NCBI RefSeq assembly: GCF_032854445.1
Contig: NC_088301.1
Coordinates: 53,431,187-53,495,186, forward strand
Origin: Liolophura sinensis
Taxonomy: Eukaryota > Mollusca > Polyplacophora > Chitonida > Chitonidae
Direction: 5' to 3'
DNA length: 64,000 bases
Translations under genes and position numbers: made by a program
Notes under the pieces: model-generated
Database searches by the model: none
The model's input: only the letters and a program-made list of their open reading frames with translations
Told to the model about the DNA's origin: nothing
Shown here: positions 342 through 59,900 of the stretch, one piece after another
Numbering within the stretch: position 1 is the first letter of the stretch
How the letters are laid out: each line of letters starts with the position of its first letter

Positions 342-3300
342 TCATGCTAAAGTTTGGAAACAAAAGGCCTGCAACTGGTGTTTGTTACTGGGTCTAGAAT
401 GCCCACCTGATGGTTGTATACCCTGTGGTTGAGGCACAAAGTGATGTGTTGTGTTGGGGTTGTTTGATGTTGTCACAGGAGCTGCTTGGTAATTTTGGCG
501 AAGCACTGTTCCTGATGACCTTCTCGACCTTATACAACAACACCAGACAACTATAATGGTGAACACGATGGCCGACACAACCACCACAACAATCACTCCG
601 ATAACTGCTGAAAAGTCCAACCCAACAGTGGAATTTGATGAAGGACTGAAAGTATAATCTGAAAAACAGAGACATGATTAATGACATATATCCACATTAA
701 TACATTTACACCCGGCAAAACACGAAGTAGTCCTACACTGTATATATGGTACATGTATATGGACACAGACCCCCATTACAACTTCAGTTTTTCAGTAGGG
801 ACGATTGTAGTTCTGTGTATTTTAGGGTGTAAATTTTTTTTTTGCTGCCAGCCTGCCGTTTTTGGTGTACAGGTGCATGCTTGGTGTCAAAATGATGGAA
901 ATTGTCTAAGCTTTGGGCAGGTATGAGTTTTAATGGTGAAAGTTTGAAATTCTGGGCGAGAGGACACAAGGAGACAGGTGGTGATGAGGCCGCGAGTGAC
1001 GTCCCCTTGGCGTTGCTAGGCACCCCTGCCAGCTGCCGGCATGGATAGGTCCAGATTTTGACGGTCAACCTATGTCGAGATTTTTACAGCTTCTTTCTCA
1101 CAGGCTGGGCCAGGTATGCACCAAAGATTATTGGCCTCGGAATGTTTGGGACTGAGCTACAGCGCTAAATGTTAACATTGTCGCTTATGGAAAACTAATG
1201 GGGGTCTGTGGCCATATTTGACAAATAAAAAGATATCAGGCTGAACAACAGACCAATGCCAAGATGCTGCAATAAAGTCACTAACACACAACTAAGCTTT
1301 TAGGTTTATCTAATGGGTGAACAATTCATACAAAACACTCTATTATTTGCGACCTTGTTATATGTACTCATGATCATACAGATATAAAAGAAAGTAACTG
1401 GAAAAGATATATAAAGGCCAAAGAAGTCTACCATCATTTATATGTATAGTTCAACAATTCAAATCATATCTTAATATTTAAATGTAAATATAATGCTTAC
1501 CTTCAACACTTAGCTCAAGAGAAATGCTGAAATCCCTATTGAAGTTACGACCTCTTGAAAGTTTGAGCCTCACATATCTATTTTTGGTTGATTGCCAGTT
1601 CAAAAGTGGTGCATTTGAACAGGAGTAGGTACTTTCCTGTAAATTTGAGTAGAATGTAGCATAAAATGTGAGAGTAACATCAACCATGCATCCTCACACT
1701 GGGTTTTATACAATGCAATGTACACAAATACAATAACTACATGTGTTTTATTCATTTATTTATATGACCACAGTTTAACACTGTACCTATGAATTTTACA
1801 CTTATATGACAGTGGTAAGGATTCTGGATGGAGGAAGCCAGAGTGCCAGCAGTGAACAACTGCCCTTTGCCTGGTACCTGACAAACTTTCTTACTTAAAG
1901 CAGACAGGGATGGATTAAGATTTACAACTTCATTAACAGCCATGGACAGCCACAGCTAGCCAGCACCGTCTGCCTTAAAAAAAAATAAATTTTTTGTTTT
2001 ACAGATATATAAAGTCAAATGTTTTAATCTTTCATTACAGATGAACAATGGCCTACAACTGGTTATTAAAACGTCATGCAGGCCAACTGATTTTCCTAAA
2101 CTTTACACATGCAATGTCCCAAAACACAGAAGCAGGAGTGATACTCACATGACCTGATGAAGGAAACAAGCCTGTAAGTGACGTATAAACCTGGAACTTG
2201 ACATCACAGTCATGCAAATTATACTTGATGAACTTCAACTTAAGGTCATCATACGTATCATCAGCTTTGAAAGTCAATACACAGGTGTGTCCAGTCCACC
2301 AGTTGGAACCATCAATATTCACTTCAGCGATATCACTACTACTCAATTCAATCGGCTCACTGTGGTATTTTCCATGGCACTTTGAAATCATATCCACTGA
2401 AATTACAATATATGTTATACACTGTAACAAATGCATTAAGAATGACAAAGCAAACATGTACTTATGTTTACAATATAACAGATAGCATTGAATCTTGAAA
2501 TTCAAAACAAGTAAAAAGTATTTTATAATTCTTAAACAGTTTATCATGCGTCAGAAAATAGTTTGCCTGATTTTATCTAAATATTTTATTATGTACATGA
2601 AAGAATACATTTCAGAATTAAGTATGTCTATAGTGCATACACGAAAACGATTGTGAAAACCAAAAAAATTTCAAGCAGAGCTTGCAAAACAAGAGTTCAG
2701 GTGAATACAACATGCCCCCCAACAAATGCAGTTGTGTGAAATGTGTAAAAGAATACCATCAGTATTGTTGTGAGCATAACCTCTGAGGGAAATCCTCATG
2801 GGTGTTGATGACAGGTATGTGGTTACCATGAATGTTTCCACCAAAACTGAAAACTCTATGCGGAAAACAGTTGGGAGTTATAGCCCGCCCGGAAATTGTA
2901 AATCATACCTATATATATATAAGGAAGATGGCTATCTGGTTACCATGACAACCGTGGAAATGGACAAATGTGAGTCGCAACACATCGTCCTCTGTGTATC
3001 TATGCATCCACAAAAAATTAAAACTCTAAATGGAAAACAGTTGGAGTTATAGCCCGGACATGAAATCATATCATTATATATATATACATCATATGGGGAA
3101 AATAACAATCTGGTAACCAAGACAAATGCTCAGATGGACAATCATCGTCTGTGTATGTATGTATGTATCCACCAAAAATTAAATTTCTATTTAGAAAACA
3201 TTTGGAGTTACAGACCAGACACGAAATCATATCTATATATATAGGGAAAATGGATATGTGGTTACCATGACAACCAAAGAAATGAACAATTGTGAGTCGC

Positions 3301-18240: not shown

Positions 18241-18246
18241 TTTATT
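18241..18246 (-). terminator. Candidate poly(A) signal of the double-flytrap gene
   Basis: On the minus strand this reads AATAAA, about 395 nt past the stop codon at 18641. I saw no closer canonical signal. Confidence 0.4.
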
Positions 18247-18640: not shown

Positions 18641-21600
18641 TCAAACAGAAGACACAGCACCTTGTGACAACCGGGCTGAGGAAATTCTTTGGCACTTTAC
18701 ACACATAAGAAGATAACCGCATTCCGTTTCCAAGCACTTGAGCGACGGGTTTGAGCACATGCAGGTAGGCACAAGATCGCCACAAGTCTGTCTAGAAAAC
18801 CCGCTTGAGTTAGCAGCCAGTGGGTGAGAGTTGCTGGAATTTGCACTTGCGCTGAGAGTTTTCGAATTCTCCAGCCATGTAGAAACTTGGAGCACAGTAT
18901 TCATGGGGTTTCCATGGCTGATCTCGTGATAAAGTGGATCATCAACATCTTGGTGGTAGTCGTTGCTTTCGAGGACCGGATGGTTGATGGTCGCTGTTTC
19001 GCTAAGTGCAAACCCAGTATTGACTTGTCCATCGCCATGGTAACGGCTTTGTTCACCTGTAACACAGAAGTTAACCGGCTGATCGCTCAAGAAATATTTT
19101 TGATCAGGTAAAAGATATATACTATATCAAGAATAGAGTAGGACAAATACAAAGTTTAGGTCACTTTGTGCGCGATCTTCAGAGCACGGGTTTAATAACA
19201 AGAAAACTGTATAATTCTATGACCTCAATCACACTAAGGGGAAAACAATAAAATACATCCATCAGCAGCAAATACATACCTGAATGTAGTTTTCATATCG
19301 TATAGGAGATCGTAGGAGAACCGTGAACGGATGACAAACGCGGCTTACATTCTTGCAGACGTGCAAGGAAACGTAGTACTTGTCGATACAAACCATGTTT
19401 CATGAAGCTCGCTGTCCATCGGAATTGACCGAATGGCAAAGCATTCATGTGTTCAAAGCTTTAACTAATCTGTAAGATTTTTCCATATATTCACCATTTA
19501 TGGTGTGTTCACCACCTACCTTGCCTTTCTTTAGGTTGTTGTTTTCTGTTTTTACAAACGCAGCACAAGATAACTAGCACCGCTAATAAAATTGTTTCCA
19601 AGCAAGCCAGCACAGACACTCCGATAAGTGCGCCTTCTAAATTCTCACTGGTAGAGGATAAGGTGGTGTTTTCAGACATTGTAGTGGTATATTCTGTTGG
19701 TGGTCTGGTTTGGTTTTCACACTCTGAGCACTGGTTCTTCAAGACGCATTCAGACTTAACTGAAGATTGTCGACTGCCATATATGTCATAGAAAGCCAGC
19801 TTGTCCTTGTACAAGACGAATTTACCATTCTCGTACTTCCCCACCTGTAAAGAGGAATCAGTTTAGACATTAATCAGAGCAGAAACAATCACGCGACATC
19901 ATTGCAGAGTCCGTTTCAGCGAGAGTACACAATATTTACTTATTTCATTGGTGTTTTACGCCGTATTGAAAAAAATTTCAACGGCGGCCAACATTATGGT
20001 GGGAGGAAGGCTCTGAGAGTTAACTTAATGTATTGGCCAAATCTAGATTATTGGCATTTCGTGAGACATAATCATAGCGGTACAATCACTGGAGAGATTA
20101 ATTCAGTTTGAGTATCATGAGGTACGCTCATTGAGAAAATAGCTTGGGATTAAAGCTGAGGTACATGGACAAGAAGTGGGATAAACCAGGAAACCATTTG
20201 CCAACTAGCAACTTTTTGTCGCTGCTCTGGTTTTAACCTATATACTGTTTTCACTGTCTTTCACAGGGACTGATTTTGTTACATTGATATGTGGGTGTGG
20301 CATTGTATATTACTGTGGCTGTTGATATGAAAGTTAAAAGTTTTCAAAATGACAAGTAATTCTTGCTTACGCTAATCCGTCGGAGTTGTTTTTACTTGTT
20401 TTGTTTTTATTATAACGTAATAATAGACACGTGACGTCCAATAAACCTGCATACTATTAACATCAAAGCATTTTTGTTAACATATTTCTAATTAAGACAT
20501 GTGATTCTATGTCAAATGTGATGACAACACAGTATTTTGAGTAAGTCTACACCAGTGACGTGTAATAACTGACAATTAACATCACTGCATTTCTTTTACC
20601 TAATTCTGCTTAAGCCATAATGCCAGGGGTGTGTAATTTGCTACTATTTATACATTTACATCAACTGTTATAATAGGGCCTTAACAGAGGGGAATTGACG
20701 TGAGGCCGTGTTTCACCGGTTGCGTGTGATCATTTGCCAGCTATCACACTGTCGTCGCTGTTTTTCTCTCTATGTATGCGACTTAATTATATGGTGCTAG
20801 GGGGCATGTTCGTTAATATAATTTGAGCATTAACATGAACAGTTACTGTAACACGCAAACCCTAAGAGTGGTAAACTGACATGAGAGACGTTTGACCATT
20901 TTCCAACTAAGACACTGTTGCTGCTGTTTTTATGCTCGCTAAAAAAACGACATTCTGCTGAATAAAATGAAAAAGTAATGCTTCGACGACAGGATGATAA
21001 CAAATGGTCAAACGTAACCGGTGAAATACGGTCTCAATATAACTGAGTTAGGGACATAAGATTTACAGCACTGAGAGTAAAACCAGTAAGTGTCTTTGTC
21101 CGAACATGGTGTGGAAAAGGACAAATAATGATATAAATATAAAACCATGGACAGTAAAAGCAGAGCATGTTGTACTGCCATTTTAACATGCAATAAAATA
21201 AAATTAAATCTGAAATAAGATCAGGTTCAACACGGATATTTTGTAGTGTCAATTTCGGATTTCTCCGTTACGTGTAACCATTTGCCAACTACCAGTGTAC
21301 TCAGTGTAACATTGGCTATTCTCAGGTGTTAAATGTCCTTATGACCCGGGCATTTAGCTGTGCGGTGTTTTCTTACACATGTAGTTTATACTTACATCAA
21401 TGTAACCATAGCCTGATTTTGAAGTTGAATACTGGATGTTAAAAATGGTGAACCCAATAAGTCCATTTCCGTTCTCGTCAAATAATTTCTCATCCTCTTG
21501 GGATGATAACGTGACCTGGGAAATGGCGTTGGTGAGCAGTTTAGCTCCATTCATCGTTCTCTCCGAAACGGATGAAGGTGAGCATATTTCTCCACGACAG

Positions 21601-24600
21601 AGTTTTCGGAACACTTTTTCTATGCCTTTCGCCCCTGCCAAAACAGCATTAATCGTGTGCACTACTCTTTGATCACGGCTGTATTTGTTAAGGTCTGAGG
21701 CATTGAATCGCCCATGGTTTATTCTGTTACACAGTGGAAGATCTCGTTTATTAGCTATGAATCCATCTTCGAATTTGCAGCTGAAACGATCTTGCCAGAA
21801 TAGCCTTAGCCAGTCACATTTAGTGCACGTAAATGGGTCTTTCTGACTGACGAATACTTTGAACTGATCAGTGTTGTCGTAAAGCGTTGTGTCAGAGTGC
21901 AGCACTACAGATCCTCTTGCATAATTTACTCGTCCTTCTTTCAGCAAGGCTTCGTTGACACCCCAGGCCTCTGTGGCAACAAAGAGAAATTCCCCTGGAT
22001 CTACATCAGCTCGGTCTCGCAGGCTGTCAAGCACTTTTTCGGCTAGAGTATCAATGCCAAAATAAACAATAACTTTGGCGTAGGTGCGGCGCAGAGTAGA
22101 AACAATATCCTTAAAGCTCTTTTCAATAACTGACTTGGATATTGGGACAGTATCAGCTAAGCAAATACCTCTTTTGTTCGCATACTTCTTGAATGTCTTC
22201 ATTCCTTCTGTGCCATAATTGTTGTCCATGTACATAACAGCCACATATTTCCAGTTCATGGCATCGAGTAAATCTACAATGGCGTTTACCTGTGTCTTGT
22301 CGCTAGGAACAGTCCGGAGGAAATAAGCGTACTTTTCCCGGTCATCTAGGTCAGTCGAAGAAGCGCCATAGGATATTTGGGGAATGCGGATCCGCCTGAG
22401 CATGTCGGCAACTTCCAGTGTAACATCACTGGAGAGGGAACCAATCACCAAGATGACTTTGTCGGGGTCAATGTAGGTGTTTGTTCTCTGATCAAATAGT
22501 TTGTATTTTCCACTCAAAAAGTTGGATAAAATATATTCAGCTCTTAAAGGGTTATAACAATCATCGAAAGCTATCCCTCCGAATTTCAGCATCGGATACT
22601 TCCTTTGAATAACGCTAATTGCGTACTCAAATGCTTCAAATGTTAGATACGAAACAGTGTTACTTCGGAACTCTCTGCATTCAAAATCACCATCACTCTT
22701 TTCACTTAATGAGAATAAACCGAGCAAAAGAAGATCGCCTGGTATGTAGGAAAACTGAATATCCTCCACAGGGATGCATTCTTGGCAAGACGAACCGCAT
22801 GTGGACCGTGGAAGATTCTGGCCGCTCAGATTTAACCCAGACTCGGGGTCTCTTACATTAATCTTGTTTTTGTCCAGGGTGAGTGTATTGTTTGTGTAAC
22901 TTCCAACCTAAAATTCAAAAGATAACGCCAAGCCAATAAAGGTATTAAAGGTAACCATAATATATTGGGATGCCAAATGTATACGAAGGGCATATATTAA
23001 GTTTATCTGTAATAATCAGTGATTCATGTACTTGATTGGTGTTAAACGCCGTACTCAAGAATGTTTCACTTATACGACAGCGCCCAGCATTATGGTGGGA
23101 TTAAACCAACCACAATGTGGAGGCCGCTGGAAGACCTTTCCTTGCACGACCGAAGAGGTAGGCAGCATCAGCTGGACATGGTCTCACAGGGACCGCATTG
23201 GTGAGATGCTCCTTTGTTGCCCTGATACGCTAACAACTAGGCCACGGATCATCAGTGAGATAAATCATGTGTGATAAATCATGAGGGGGGTCTTATTTGA
23301 AATTTTACTTATAAACTGCTTAGATCATACTAAGATACTTTGATTTAAAACAAATTACGTTATTTTTTCAAGAATAAATAAGGAAACAAACGCTTCTTAC
23401 AATGCTGTGCTTGTTTTTCCAAACGTTGTAAACCTCGTACGAAACTGTCTTATCGTTTGTCATAAGTTCCCCAGCAGCGTCGAATTTGATGACTCTCTTC
23501 AGCAGCCGGAATTCGTACGGAGCAAAATTTTCTTCAATCTTGGAATAATCCAGTGTTGTTTCGTTCAATGACCTTACAAGCCTTGTGTATTTGAAAGACG
23601 GCGGAACACACATTGGGTCTCCAGTACAAGATGATGGATCATTCTTCAGGGCTGTGACAAGCACATAGACAGCGTCTATTGCACTGGCTACGTAATCCGA
23701 CTGCTGATAGTTCTTCTCCAAAAACGACCTTTGTATGCGAGCACAGCTGTTTAGAGGGTTATCAAATTCACAGTTGTATGAAGTCTCCACATACTTCTTG
23801 AATAATCTTGAAAGTGGATGATCTGACTTCCCCTGAATTACGTTCTCCAGATGGTCAAGGAAGTATGTCTTGAATTCTTTTAATACCGTTGATGGTAAAG
23901 CCACCGTAATAAGTCCGTCTACCTGTTGACTGGATTTTGGAATCAAATTCTCGTTGAGTCCGATCGCTTCGGACATAACCCAGAAGAGTCGTTTGAAATC
24001 CCTATCATATTTTCTGGCGCCATCCTGCTGCGCGCGCAATAGAAGCGAGGCTTGGGCCAGTTGACCAATGTAGACGATACCCAGTTGATTGTGACGAGTT
24101 TTGCCAAGCTTGGAAGCCAATGATGTAATAATACCTTCTGCAGTCTCCGGATGCCTTTCATGGGGCGAAATCGACTTCTCTGTGATAATGCACACCTTTT
24201 CCTCGACCGCTGTGAGTTTTCGTAGTAAGTGCACTCCATCCATACCGTACGCATCAGTAGTATAGACAACTGCAATGTATGTCCAGTTTAGCTGCTTTAC
24301 TGTCTCAAGCAAGACCTGTAGCACATTCAGATAAAGACGTCAGTGTCAACAAAAATGGAAAAGCTAAACATATGAAGATCACCATTTAATGTAGCCATTG
24401 AAGACTATGCGCTTTCTAATTTTTGTGAATTTATGTTCAGTCCTTCGTTTTCATAATCCTAAACCCACATATATCGGGTTTGGTTCATAAACTCCGATTT
24501 TCTGTGCGAAGCGAATGTTACACGGAATTTATCACCGGTTCTAGCTGCCATTAGTTTTGTATAAGTTTTCCTTCAGGAGAAAAAATTCGAACTGAAATAT

Positions 24601-27210
24601 ACCTTTGTCTGTTCTGTATCTGAAGGGACGGTACGGTAGAAGGACGGGTAGAGCGTGTTATTTCCCAAGCCAGCTGCAGTGGCCGCAGAACTTATCACAG
24701 GTAAATGGCTACCTTGGGCTAGCTTGGCTACTTCCTTGACAGTTTGGCTGGTCGATGTGTCGATGATACCTACAGGTGCAACAAGGTGATTTCATGAAAA
24801 TGCAAGCAATCAGATATGTGATAGGTGAAGAAACGATTATAACATAATAACAGGTAACCTATTTGAGAATAAGTAATGGTTAAAATATGGTAACTTTATA
24901 AAAAGCATACCGACGGGTTAATTTGTTCATGAATTCGTGTAGAGAAAGAATGGAAATAAGATGTATAGAGGCCAGATTCTAACACGCATTGTCAGACGAC
25001 TTCAAGGCACAGGTGTTTAAGTGCAGTCACACTTAAAAATTTGGAATTCATCAACCAGTCAGAGGAAATCCGCTTATCCTTCATGGTCGATTTACATTTC
25101 ATCTGAAATGGTCTTTTATTGTCTTGGCTAACCATCCAGTGTTCTGCGTTTCCAAACATGAATGGAAATCAGACTGATATTTACCAACCACCGTTGAATT
25201 TTCATATGCTTGTTTAGCTGTGGAACAGCTACCAACGTCATCATACCCTGCTCGAATTAGCGTGTCGATGGTTATCTTCACGGCCTTCCTCTCGAGGTTG
25301 CAATCGTCAGATATGTCGATACCTAAACATACATACAGTGTCTGTCTTAAAAACGGCGTTTCCTGATTTAATACAGTTATTTATAAAGTTAACAAATCAC
25401 GTATGAATAAACACTTTCACTGTCGAGAGAAAACAAACAGTCAACTGCGGAAGTAATATTGTTCAAACGCCCCAAAAGCCCCCAATAACCGCTTATTGAA
25501 AGAGCGAGAAAGTCTCAAAAATCTAGAAAACCCGAGTCCAAAGCAATAACGTCATAAAGCAAGTTTAGCTGAACTCATTATACGCCCAAACAAATTTTCC
25601 TGCTTAAGTTATAAACATAAGGAAGCAAGTATTCGGGAAGTATTCCATGTGCCCTGTCGTCCAGAGCTATCACAGTTGTATGTCACAGTTGTTAACAAAA
25701 TAAAATCGGGCGTCATTTTTGCTTGAATAAGACTAAACGCTCCAAAACTGGAATTTGATCGGTAACTTGTTTCGGTAAAGGGTAATATGTTTCGGTTTAA
25801 TACAATAAAAAGTTTTGAAAGAAAATGATGCAGAAAACTGTTTAAATTGTTTGAAATGTTAGTATGGGAAATGTAACTCAAAAATTCATCTATAATTTGT
25901 CGTGATGAAGCCATGTGCAAAGTTTCACTTCAATACGTTGAATAGGCCTGAAAGAAGTCCGAAAGACAGTTTTGTAAAGAGCTGGCAGACTGGATTAGAA
26001 ATAATGATGTCCCCTTCACCTCCCCCTCCCCGACAACATCATGGGTACTGATAGGAGATTAACAATAAACCAACATGTAATTGTTTAGGTATTCAGGCGA
26101 AGTGTTTTTATCATGTATAGGTATTGGCATCGAAGAATACAGGCCGTTATAGTGTGACTCCAACAGAATAGGCCTGACCCAGATGTATGTCTGTCGTGGA
26201 GGGGAGCCATATAAAAACAGCTCGAGTTTGTTCACCCTTGATTATTTTCAGGCCACTCCCGGACGTACCGGGTGTTAAAATCTTTTCGGTATACTCCCGG
26301 ATGTACATGGCGTGTTTTTTTTTTAACAGTGCATGATGTACTTTAAAAAAACTTGTGGCTTGTGTGTCATACAAGTTCAAACCACCAACAGCAGTACAGA
26401 TTTGTTGTGGGCCAGAGAAGAAAAAGCACGATACTATAATAGAGACAGTGAGGGTATGATTTTTTTCTCTTACAAACAACCGGTGAACTTCCAATGTTAC
26501 GTCTATTGATAAATTATAAAAGAAACATATGTACTCAACATGAATGTACTACTACTAACAAAAACTAAATGATAATCTTACGGAGCTCATGGAATACGTG
26601 GCATATGTGAATTGTATATGTAGCTTTTCATATATGTAACCACAAATGGATTATCCTGTTATGGGTGCGTCATTTTTTGACACCTCTACCAAGTTCAGCT
26701 GTGTTGCGAGGGCGCGTATCACCAACATCCAACCTCCCCCACTCCTCTCCACCTTATACCTTCCCGACCAATCATTCGTACGTTCCCAGAGTGTATACCA
26801 ATACATGAAATACCCTAAATGAAAAATAAAAAAAATCTGCCAGAGGATTCGCCATGTGTGTCCAACAAAAACTGGTTTGTCGCTTTACTGATAAGATATA
26901 AAGAGTACTTATCACACAAATGGGCAGGATTGAGACAAAGCTTACCAATTGTTTTCCCTGGAATGTAAGAATTTCCTGTGGGTGAGCCATTCAATTTTTC
27001 CACTGACCATACCATGGCCGCGACTGTCTGGAGTTCTCCAGGAATATACTTGCCACACAAGCCATCGTGCGAGTCTCGAATACCGGCGATCGTGGACAAA
27101 ACAATGTCTCCTGGAATCCTTATGAAGTCCAGGTCACAGTGCTGTGCGAGACACAGGTACAGGTGTGACAACAAAAGAAGCAGAAACCATAGGTCAATAC
27201 GGACCGGCAT
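18641..27210 (-). CDS. Tandem Venus-flytrap (mGluR-like ectodomain) single-pass membrane protein, 7 exons, 1245 aa
   Basis: Coding exons on the minus strand are 27210-26946, 25322-25185, 24769-24603, 24315-23401, 22907-21396, 19844-19520 and 19056-18641. All junctions are GT..AG and the frame closes throughout. Residues 1-22 are a signal peptide. Flytrap domain 1 (about 24-495) is spread over four exons and includes LNWTYIAVVYT, DAYGMDG and FYRTVPSD. A VGSY motif and a short Cys linker (STCGSSCQEC, 531-540) follow. Flytrap domain 2 (about 545-999) lies in one 504-codon exon and is clearly mGluR-like: IPQISY, FLRTVPSD, NNYGTEG, FWQDRFSC. Then come VGKY, a brief Cys segment, a Thr/Ser stem, one transmembrane helix (about 1070-1096) and a cytoplasmic tail to 1245. 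mGluR backbone-binding residues appear kept (S142, T165, D185, Y213; S655, S678, D698, Y726). The position of the mGluR1 side-chain arginine R78 is Thr (T62, T584). No seven-helix, kinase or cyclase domain is present. Confidence 0.9.
19944..20010 (-). mobile_element. SINE 3'-part fragment (43.6-kb family)
   Basis: This contains 'attggtgttttacgccgta' and 'cattatggtgggaggaa', the reverse complement of the family body and tail. Confidence 0.7.
20511..20775 (+). repeat. ~300-bp interspersed repeat, reference copy in this window
   Basis: Ordered blocks are gatgacaacacagtatttt, 'ccagtgacgt-taataa', 'aattaacatcactgcattt', 'acctaattctgcttaagcca', 'acatttacatcaactgtta', 'ttcaccggttgcgtgtgat' and 'tttgccagctatcacactg'. 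The same order recurs at many places listed separately. It has no ORF. Confidence 0.8.
20822..20935 (+). repeat. Partial copy of the ~300-bp interspersed repeat
   Basis: This carries the second half of the family: gcattaacatgaacagtta, a-accctaa-agtggtaaactgacat, then 'gaccattttccaactaag' and cactgttgctgctg. Confidence 0.65.
23033..23250 (-). mobile_element. Near-complete SINE (43.6-kb family) in intron 4
   Basis: In reverse orientation the plus strand reads tail to head: 'attggtgttaaacgccgta', 'ttcacttatacgacagcgcc', 'cattatggtggga', 'ggaagacctttcc', and a tRNA-like end 'gaccgcattggtgagatgct' ... 'ctaacaactaggccacgg'. It lies between exons 4 and 5 of the double-flytrap gene. Confidence 0.8.
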
Positions 27211-56902: not shown

Positions 56903-59900
56903 ATGAGCATCAACCCAGGACAGATCAAGGCCCTGAAGGAATGCATGGTCATTATCCGCGAGGATATCAGGGGCAATGGGGCAGCCTTCTTTGAAAAGTA
57001 AGCCGTATGTACACATGGTTAGCAGAAGACGTTTATATATGTACTTAGAGGGAGGCTTTATTATTTATACAAACCTCAGACTATAACAAACCCCATGGAC
57101 ATTTTGAATACATTTTCAGTGTATATCTCTTTGTTGAAATCATTCTCTCTGTACTTTCTCGCATGAATGCATTGTATCAACCCACACAGTAGTGGTGACT
57201 CAATGTGGACACGCGGTGCCTGTGACTGAAAGCATGAATGGTACTTCTGAAGGAAATGAACTTCTGTATTTAATGAATGAGTTTTTATGTCATAAACTTG
57301 GCATATGGAGTTTTATGAGACTCGACTCTATAATCTGGGTTTTCTGCGACTGTGTAATCTTAACTGTGGATTAGAGGTGAATTGGAAACGTGCTGAGTTA
57401 TATATGGTCAGAGAGAAGGTAGATGTGGCAATATTTGCACTCGTTTCTATAAGCCTGCATTGACCCTGTATGAGTATTCTATCTATCACAATGAGACTCA
57501 GGGCCCAGTTGTTCAAAAGCATACTAGTCCAGTATTAACATGTCCATTAGTGTTATATTAAACCAAGACTGGTATTAGGATTTATGTATGTCTACTTTTA
57601 ATACACCATTGAACAACCCAAAGTACCTATCTACCAAAACCACTGAGGAAATGCATGGCGTTAAGCCATGATCATTTATTCAAAACATGGAGGATATTGT
57701 AATAGTTAGTATTTACTCACTGGTCATTTGCGATATACTAAGTTCATATTTCCCGCCTTTGAATCTTCTGTTGCGCATGTGCAGTTATGTGGCATTCTTT
57801 ATATGACATTATAGCTAATACGTAAAGGGAAAGGTTAGTTGTGTCAATTAATCGTCTTCAACTAAAGCATTTGTCGTGGTGTTCGCTAGCAAATTATCAC
57901 TCTGTACAGCATGCCTAACTAATATGTAATTATTGAAACTTGTCATCAGTAAACAAATATTTTCTCATTTCAAAAGTGAAGTAAAAATAGAATTTAGTTC
58001 GACGGCCACTCAGTTGAATACATAAATAGCTGAGATTGCTGATTTCAAGTTCATGGCTACTCTGGCAACGTGTCGAGTGGCAGTAGAGATATATGGAAAA
58101 GAAATCCCCGGTCGCTCAACCATTGAATGCTACTGGTACACTAACTGGAATATCTATCAACTACAGCTTGTATGGATCTAACCTTGAGATTGTGATAAGG
58201 ATAAATACACCAGCAGAAAGAGCTTGCTATAGGTAAATAGATAAAGCCACAGGACCTACTTTTCCCGATGAACTAACCACATTTTGGCTAGAAGTGCACA
58301 CCCCTCGAGGTATTCACACCAAGTAGCCTGTAGTCTTTCAGTATTTAACTTGAGCAAGTAAATAAGTGATCATTGCCTAGGGTAAAGTTTAAATAACTAA
58401 ATCGATGTGTCAAACTAGTCCCACGTGTTTTACAAACAGCTGCCTCATAACATACGACACAAAGTCAATGATAGGCTGATAGGATTATGAAAAATCAAAT
58501 ATGACACAATAACTGTAATGATGGTATCCTGGATATCTTGTGATGTAAAGCGTACCACAGACAAACCAGGACCATGTTTGTGTATTACCGCACTGCGTGA
58601 CTTGAGGTGACTTCATGGTAAACATGTAACATATGGAAGGGCATTAAGTACACCGGAAGTAATCAGCTATTAAGCTGAATTGGGGTTGAAAGCCACAAAC
58701 CAATGCTTTGTTTTAGAGTACTTTAAATAACCCAAAAATTCGACCACAAAACAGCATGTTTGGAGGCAAATAAATCTTATGAGATATTACATCTGGTGCT
58801 AAAATTTGCATTTTCCCAGTGGAAACACCTTTCACATTTCTAAAATCAATAGACCTCCCATTATCTAGGAGTAACATGGCCAATATACGAAATTTTACGT
58901 CATTTAGGGTAAATGACACAAGGTTTCGTCCATGTTTAAGTTGCACTGATATTAGAAAAGCGATTGAAATATAGCTTCAGCAACAATAGTTATATTTTAT
59001 GACATTTACCTGCCTTTAAATATCCCTTATTTTTATCTAAATTTTAGGTCATAGAGAATATATATATCTTCTTGTTCAACAGCGCACATCAAGACCCAAT
59101 TGTTAGGCTATAACAAGATAGAGAGATAACCCAACAAAAGTCTAAGTGCCCTAATGTTAATGGCAAACGACTGGTACTGGTAATTGACTTCGTGGCGCCC
59201 CGTTAACGTCTTGAGTATTTCTCACCCTGAAGCATGACCCGCGCTGACCTCCGACGGGACAGCCTGGTGCATCTGGACTAAGTTATTCGGATTATGTATA
59301 AAATGGCCGCTAAAAGGTTATTACGCGGCCAGAGGAAATATTTGCTTCTTCTGTCAAACGGCAGGAAATCACATTTTTGCCACGTGTTTTCGCCTTTACA
59401 TGCACATTTCTCTTTTGACGTTCTGTGCAGTGGTAGTTATATATTACCAAACTCAAATGAATTACCTACGAATTGTGTGCTTGGATTGTGGAACACAGCG
59501 CAGAAGGCGGTTCCACCTTTTGAACCACCATTGCGAATATTGTGTTTTATCACAAAATGTTTTGGCTGGCCTGCAGCTCCAACCGAAGTTTCATATGAAA
59601 TTCGCAAAATTAATTGATAATTGCAGAACAATCGGCATCCTGTACTAACTAGTTGATTAGTGAGGTCACGTGCTCACACCCACCTCTCAATACTTATAAG
59701 AAACGACAACAAACGATATAACCTTAGTTATTTCGAAAGGTGGGTGAAATCAGCTCTCTCGTGTGCTAAAACTCTAAAAATCAAATTCTAATCAAGAATT
59801 CTCACAAGGCCAAGATATGCGCCATGTTAGAGAAACGGGAAACACGATGTTGCGTCACTCGTATCCCATGTACATATGGCTACAAGGCAAAACATGGTTC

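Follow-up and report, generated by a model that had tools for sequence, protein, structure and literature searches.

Introduction

Class C receptors work as two chains, and their signal passes via contacts between two flytraps; in the metabotropic glutamate receptors (mGluRs), a loop of the venus flytrap module (VFT) contains an inter-chain disulphide. A VFT-type ectodomain on one transmembrane helix (TM), with no enzyme, is found in the natriuretic peptide clearance receptor NPR-C, and tandem VFTs occur in EvgS, a bacterial sensor kinase grouped with BvgS.

Two mGluR-like proteins lacking the seven helices, Schistosoma SmGBP and a mammalian mGluR3 splice variant, are described with one VFT module each; SmGBP binds glutamate and has a putative TM at its N-terminus, and a single TM is predicted for the splice variant (PMC3206071). 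The Venus kinase receptors, which are present in molluscs, are described as combining one VFT on a single TM with a tyrosine kinase, and have an amino acid ligand (PMC3703292). In bacteria, the tandem flytraps of BvgS, a receptor with a sensor kinase inside the cell, form an intertwined dimer, and the same source mentions homologues predicted to have three to five VFTs (PMC4352136).

Here we analyse a gene of the chiton Liolophura sinensis, contained in a DNA stretch of 64,000 nucleotides (the window). It is similar to mGluRs, of which mGluR3 is its best match, in the VFT fold (as judged by sequence), in most backbone-binding residues and in several aligned cysteines, but it differs from them in having two VFTs per chain, a three-Cys stub without an NCD3G domain and one TM, and in that the glutamate side-chain residues are gone. 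It shares with NPR-C the VFT-type ectodomain, the one TM and the absence of an enzyme, whereas NPR-C has one VFT, a peptide ligand and a very short tail. With SmGBP and the mGluR3 variant it has in common a membrane-associated, mGluR-like ligand-binding part without seven helices, and with the latter also the single TM, although both are described with one VFT instead of two and the putative TM of SmGBP is placed differently (PMC3206071); these precedents establish that proteins of this kind occur at membranes, and not that the window gene has a decoy role. The likeness to BvgS, with its tandem VFTs outside one membrane, is one of architecture, and the window gene is neither bacterial nor linked to a kinase (PMC4352136). 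Likewise, it differs from the Venus kinase receptors in its two VFTs and in being kinase-free (PMC3703292).

Results

A predicted receptor with two VFTs and one transmembrane helix

An earlier note on this DNA had claimed a seven-exon product of 1245 aa in a single frame, with tandem mGluR-type VFTs and one TM but no GPCR, kinase or cyclase module, and all of this is borne out at the level of prediction. The gene runs along the minus strand from 27210 to 18641, and its seven exons (Table 1) join into a frame of 3738 nt that codes for 1245 aa plus the stop, without any break; its introns are GT-AG in six of six cases, with phases 1, 1, 0, 0, 0 and 1. The protein consists of a signal peptide, VFT1, VFT2, a stem, the TM and a tail, in this order. 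The Pfam search, which the note had proposed, found ANF_receptor (PF01094) in two stretches (E 9.4e-78) and, as the sole other family above cut-off, the related Peripla_BP_6; it retrieved no 7tm_3 (PF00003), NCD3G (PF07562), kinase or cyclase domain from the window protein, which also lacks a tyrosine kinase such as that of the Venus kinase receptors. The hydropathy profile showed a single segment above threshold besides the signal peptide, with a peak of up to 2.92. In phmmer comparisons with the PDB, mGluR3 was the top match of both VFT1 (E 4e-27) and VFT2 (E 3.9e-48); the best 60 of 99 matches of VFT1 comprised mGluR, T1R and CaSR and the best 60 of 109 of VFT2, mGluR and CaSR, with no natriuretic peptide receptors (NPRs) in either set. 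As read from the sequence, the window gene very probably encodes a type I membrane receptor with two mGluR-like VFTs in series, with their stubs, and one helix, and belongs to a gene family.

Table 1. Predicted features of the window gene (positions in the window)
Feature	Position	Strand	Basis or remark
Exon 1: initiator Met, signal peptide and beginning of VFT1; donor GTAAGC (phase 1)	26946..27210	-	junction column common to the C7:58.88 Mb and C7:41.6 Mb paralogues
Exon 2: VFT1	25185..25322	-	AG/GT, phase 1-1
Exon 3: VFT1, with ligand-pocket Ser/Thr/Asp	24603..24769	-	frame and pocket alignment
Exon 4: second half of VFT1, phase 0-0	23401..24315	-	joined frame
Exon 5: end of VFT1, stub with three Cys, then VFT2; symmetric cassette of 504 aa, phase 0-0	21396..22907	-	joined frame
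Stub 1, CGSSCQEC, after VFT1	22776..22799	-	motif; coordinates derived from exon start
Exon 6: stem and TM helix	19520..19844	-	joined frame
Stub 2, CVLKNQCSEC, after VFT2	19719..19748	-	motif; coordinates derived from exon start
TM helix, taken as aa 1068-1096	19554..19640	-	hydropathy; sole such segment past the signal peptide
Exon 7: cytoplasmic tail up to the stop (whole tail, 149 aa)	18641..19056	-	joined frame
Candidate polyadenylation signal: first AATAAA, 395 nt past the stop	18241..18246	-	the 1.2 kb scanned holds six AATAAA/ATTAAA, this one included

Three other features were noticed in the window. Intron 4 contains an interspersed repeat (23000-23290), presumably a SINE from its looks, with 36 further blastn matches in the window and in the paralogue regions. 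An open frame at 59238-59645 (+), possibly exonic sequence of an adjacent gene, falls just short of the zinc_ribbon_6 cut-off (26.2 bits against 27; E 7.4e-6). A second one, at 345-677 (-), encodes one strongly hydrophobic helix with a tail; it has no Pfam family over cut-off and could be the last part of a different membrane protein.

Paralogues with the same architecture

In the genome (609 Mb), PF01094 has at least 103 matches when each exon is counted separately. A genome search with exon 5 retrieved, next after itself, loci on contigs C7 (58.88 Mb, 36% identity, and 41.6 Mb, 34%), C3 (12.43 Mb, 35%) and C4 (10.58 Mb, 29%). Four further loci with two VFTs and one TM were assembled, two of them complete (on C7, with seven exons each; 1172 and 1280 aa) and two partial, with models starting at exon 3 (C3) and exon 4 (C4); exons 1 and 2 were not found in the stretch examined around the C3 locus, and candidate exons 1 and 3 of the C4 gene were left out of its joined model. 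A genome search with the exon 6 sequence matched the window alone (one match) and missed exon 6 of all four paralogues, so it provides no family count.

Each of the five models has one TM segment above threshold past the leader, and Pfam found two PF01094 stretches in each of the three complete proteins; this recurrence, with that of the junctions, speaks against a chance arrangement. The first two junctions occupy the same alignment column, with the same phase, in 3/3 models, the third in 4/4 and the fourth and fifth in 5/5, an agreement that is partly built in because the splice sites were picked by phase, AG/GT and similarity, sometimes among several candidates; the open frames and their order are independent of this choice. 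Past the TM, the next junction is of phase 1 in 4/4 models, but it is shifted by up to 22 columns, and the C4 gene has an additional, tentatively joined exon between stem and TM. Over all ten pairs of two-VFT genes, identity is 18–50% for VFT1, 26–55% for VFT2, 15–31% for the stem, 15–36% for the TM and 11–27% for the tail, with the VFTs better conserved than the tails in most pairs. In the closest pair, C7a and C3, VFT1 and VFT2 are 50 and 55% identical and the tails 20%, whereas between the window gene (W) and C4 VFT1 is no better kept than the tail (18 vs 20%). The ectodomain of the pair C7a-C3 looks kept by selection, because differences at the three codon positions are 0.36/0.25/0.68 for VFT1 and 0.35/0.24/0.68 for VFT2.

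A further cluster of VFT receptors was seen on contig C2 (G000:C2 10.75-11.50 Mb), with ten PF01094 matches across 0.75 Mb and with no PF00003 or NCD3G nearby among the matches listed.

Five-VFT relatives with seven helices

The earlier note named no known family with this architecture; the layout that it described stands, but its account was incomplete, since the genome holds at least five such genes and, on contig C10, seven-helix cousins with five VFTs, which are a larger surprise than the two-VFT, one-helix genes. The cousins are three genes at 24.52-24.65 Mb, A and B on the minus strand and C on the plus strand, with exons in the order VFT1 (similar to exon 4), VFT2, VFT3, VFT4 (two exons), VFT5 and a seven-helix exon. 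Their open frames, in models that begin at the exon-4-like VFT1 exon and leave signal peptides and first exons outside, span 2591, 2584 and 2627 aa for A, B and C, without internal stops and with AG/GT sites of phases 0, 0, 0, 1, 0 and 0. Pfam found five ANF_receptor stretches and 7tm_3 in the protein of gene A; for B and C, profile searches of the genome placed 10/10 VFT modules over the PF01094 cut-off and matched the seven-helix domains.

Within the same 130 kb (G000:C10 24520001-24650000), these three class C GPCR genes are accompanied by a one-VFT locus (D), with its VFT in a single open frame and an adjoining, unjoined seven-helix frame, and by a decayed seven-helix copy with nine internal stops. 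Two more seven-helix matches appear at G000:C10 4.70-4.72 Mb, each with a VFT match just upstream (at 4699429, with PF01094 over cut-off, and at 4717665, with E 2.3e-5 to exon 5), and with no NCD3G there among the matches listed.

In the five-VFT genes the seven-helix exon, which likewise starts in phase 0, takes the position of exon 6, as would be expected if the window gene were also a class C GPCR whose seven-helix exon is elsewhere or was missed, through an assembly break or alternative splicing. We consider such a hidden exon very unlikely: the PF00003 matches listed on the contig are all more than 4 Mb away (the nearest at about 46.6 and 57.7 Mb, with the window at 53.4 Mb), exon 6 encodes stem and TM and is then followed by exon 7, and a one-helix exon is present in 5/5 models, tentatively in that of C4. 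We give a similarly low probability to the window gene having descended from a multi-VFT GPCR, lost the seven helices and decayed beyond use; there are seven-helix relatives, one copy of them decayed, but the three complete models are free of stops and frame breaks, and the codon-position differences between C7a and C3 suggest purifying selection.

The two groups of genes also share a cysteine stub. In the two-VFT genes, a V-G/A-x-aromatic strand and C-x(2,6)-C-x2-C follow all ten VFT ends. This cysteine pattern also occurs at 11 of the 15 VFT ends of the five-VFT genes; three of the four exceptions are the ends preceding the seven helices, with C-x(2,6)-C-x-C, and the fourth, after VFT4 of gene C, matches neither pattern and reads C-x7-C-x2-C in the protein. 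Of the eight NCD3G matches listed for the genome (seven over cut-off), none is at the eight multi-VFT loci, and we read the three-Cys stub as a putative, shortened start of the class C cysteine-rich domain. Mostly, a stub and a VFT together make up one symmetric phase-0 exon, with VFT4 split in the C10 genes, and such a cassette could duplicate without breaking the frame. With its tandem VFTs, three-Cys stub and phase-0 cassette junctions, the window gene fits this multi-VFT stub family of the genome.

Ancient separation of the two VFTs

Our main tree included 28 VFT domains and 467 columns, with two canonical receptors of the same genome as outgroups, and its module ends were trimmed roughly and its end branches are long. 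The eight VFT1 domains, from the five one-helix and the three five-VFT genes, formed one clade (support 98/96); another, with weaker support (84/82), united the VFT2s of all five one-helix genes. The branching order W,(C7b,(C7a,C3)) was recovered in both. A second tree, limited to the second half of the VFT because several VFT1 rows are partial, also contained the VFT1 clade (98/97), with the VFT2 order less resolved and W and C4 unplaced. Recent copying of VFT1 into VFT2 within the gene was rejected, as pairing both window VFTs was 42.1 lnL units worse (p-AU 1.36e-6); by these trees, the two VFTs are anciently separate. An exclusive clade of the five one-helix VFT1s was neither shown nor rejected (p-AU 0.188), and the one-helix genes need not form one clade, because the VFT1 of C4 groups, with modest support (88/79), with those of the five-VFT genes.

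The same comparisons bear on whether the window contains one gene, as the earlier note held, or two single-VFT genes placed head to tail by chance. Taken singly, either VFT would make an ordinary ligand-binding domain, but the stop-to-stop frame of exon 5 starts exactly at 22907, directly after an in-frame stop (the TAG of the acceptor), and there is no hydrophobic leader there; moreover, the column and phase of the junction between exons 4 and 5 are common to 5/5 models, the VFT1 and VFT2 trees agree in the order of four genes and, by homology, VFT1 would end within exon 5. From the conserved junction, the stop and the trees, we reject the two-gene reading, which is most improbable, and the prediction of a single gene stands.

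Ligand pocket and dimer interface

We took the pocket columns from the genome's own mGluR in the alignment, and assume mGluR3 numbering for positions S151, T174, D194, Y222, D301, R64, R68 and K389. The first five, which contact the ligand backbone, read S, T, D, Y, E in VFT1 of the window gene (4/5 kept; D301E) and S, S, D, Y, E in VFT2 (3/5 kept; T174S and D301E). The glutamate side-chain positions R64, R68 and K389 are lost in both, being E/T/Q in VFT1 and T/T/S in VFT2, and the genome's own mGluR retains R/R/K. Within the class C amino-acid motif, the pocket serine, Ser165 of mGluR1, is reported as the most conserved residue (PMC3703292). Because most backbone residues are kept and the side-chain residues are lost, an amino-acid-like ligand other than glutamate is the likeliest guess, and at least one of the traps probably binds an amino-acid-like molecule. 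Ligand binding could nevertheless be altered or lost, given the change of D301 to Glu in both traps and of T174 to Ser in VFT2.

On the earlier note's idea that the two VFTs could pair like a dimer within one chain, the dimer interface gives mixed signals at the sequence level. The positions of L177 and F178 of mGluR1, which we take to be a hydrophobic dimer-interface pair, read G/S in VFT1 and R/I in VFT2 of the window gene in the alignment. In all three complete genes, VFT1 carries a Cys within the loop of the mGluR inter-chain disulphide, though in a different alignment column; VFT2 has none in that loop in 5/5 models. The Cys of VFT1 hints at VFT1-VFT1 pairing between chains, which would count against a pure within-chain pseudo-dimer.

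Cytoplasmic tails

The tails have 137-238 aa in 4/5 models, and that of the window gene contains DPLYHEI and ends in SSV, which we assume to be a PDZ-like motif. Enrichment of Tyr-x-x-hydrophobic motifs over shuffles was significant in 0/5 tails (p 0.147 to 1.0), no Pfam domain was over cut-off in the three tails scanned, and the NCBIfam matches of one paralogue were all far below curated cut-offs. The earlier note's suggestion of signalling through the tail is thus unsupported, with tails that share 11–27% identity and lack this enrichment.

Discussion

What the window protein might do depends on the weight given to its tail. It could be an autonomous single-pass receptor, in which the traps close on the ligand, the dimeric chains rearrange and SH2/PDZ adaptors bind to the tail; the length of most tails, the two motifs of the window tail and the joining of exon 7 by the same phase-1 junction in 4/5 models would agree with this, but the lack of motif enrichment, the divergence of the tails and their empty Pfam scans speak against it. 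Adaptor signalling through the tail may occur, but we regard autonomous signalling as the less likely course. A ligand-binding co-receptor or decoy is favoured because there is no output domain and because the VFTs are better kept than the tails in most pairs, and we lean slightly towards this over autonomous signalling. Against it, a poorly conserved tail can also mean fast-changing linear motifs, and the stem and the TM are, in these alignments, little conserved too.

To the whole of our best explanation, a tandem-flytrap, one-helix receptor acting in co-reception or in decoy/clearance, we would give an even chance. Under this explanation, judging from the pocket residues, both flytraps would bind amino-acid-like ligands other than glutamate, trap closure would be passed to no enzyme or G-protein module of the window protein itself, and the protein would serve other class C receptors as ligand-binding co-receptor or as decoy or clearance receptor. 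Its partners might be the five-flytrap, seven-helix receptors, a partnership weakened by their location on another contig.

Among the records listed by searches of the open-access literature, no animal protein with more than one VFT per chain came up, and the tandem arrangement, with two VFTs on one helix or five on a seven-helix base, was not found described for animals there. Tentatively, these genes might represent an undescribed lineage of 'poly-flytrap' receptors, with two copies of the stub-VFT cassette in series ahead of a single helix and five copies ahead of seven helices, in which one chain would read several ligands and do internally what class C dimers do, the one-helix forms being partners or decoys. 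Chains with two or five flytraps offer a natural test of whether contact between traps within a chain replaces dimerisation, and of how several ligands get summed. In turn, one-helix and seven-helix exons behind the same type of cassette would show the recombination of ectodomains and outputs in receptor evolution.

Apart from the receptor genes, we noticed on contig C8 (G000:C8 37880506-37891931), in keeping with a mollusc whose hemocyanin has eight units, eight matches in a row to the molluscan-type hemocyanin beta-sandwich domain.
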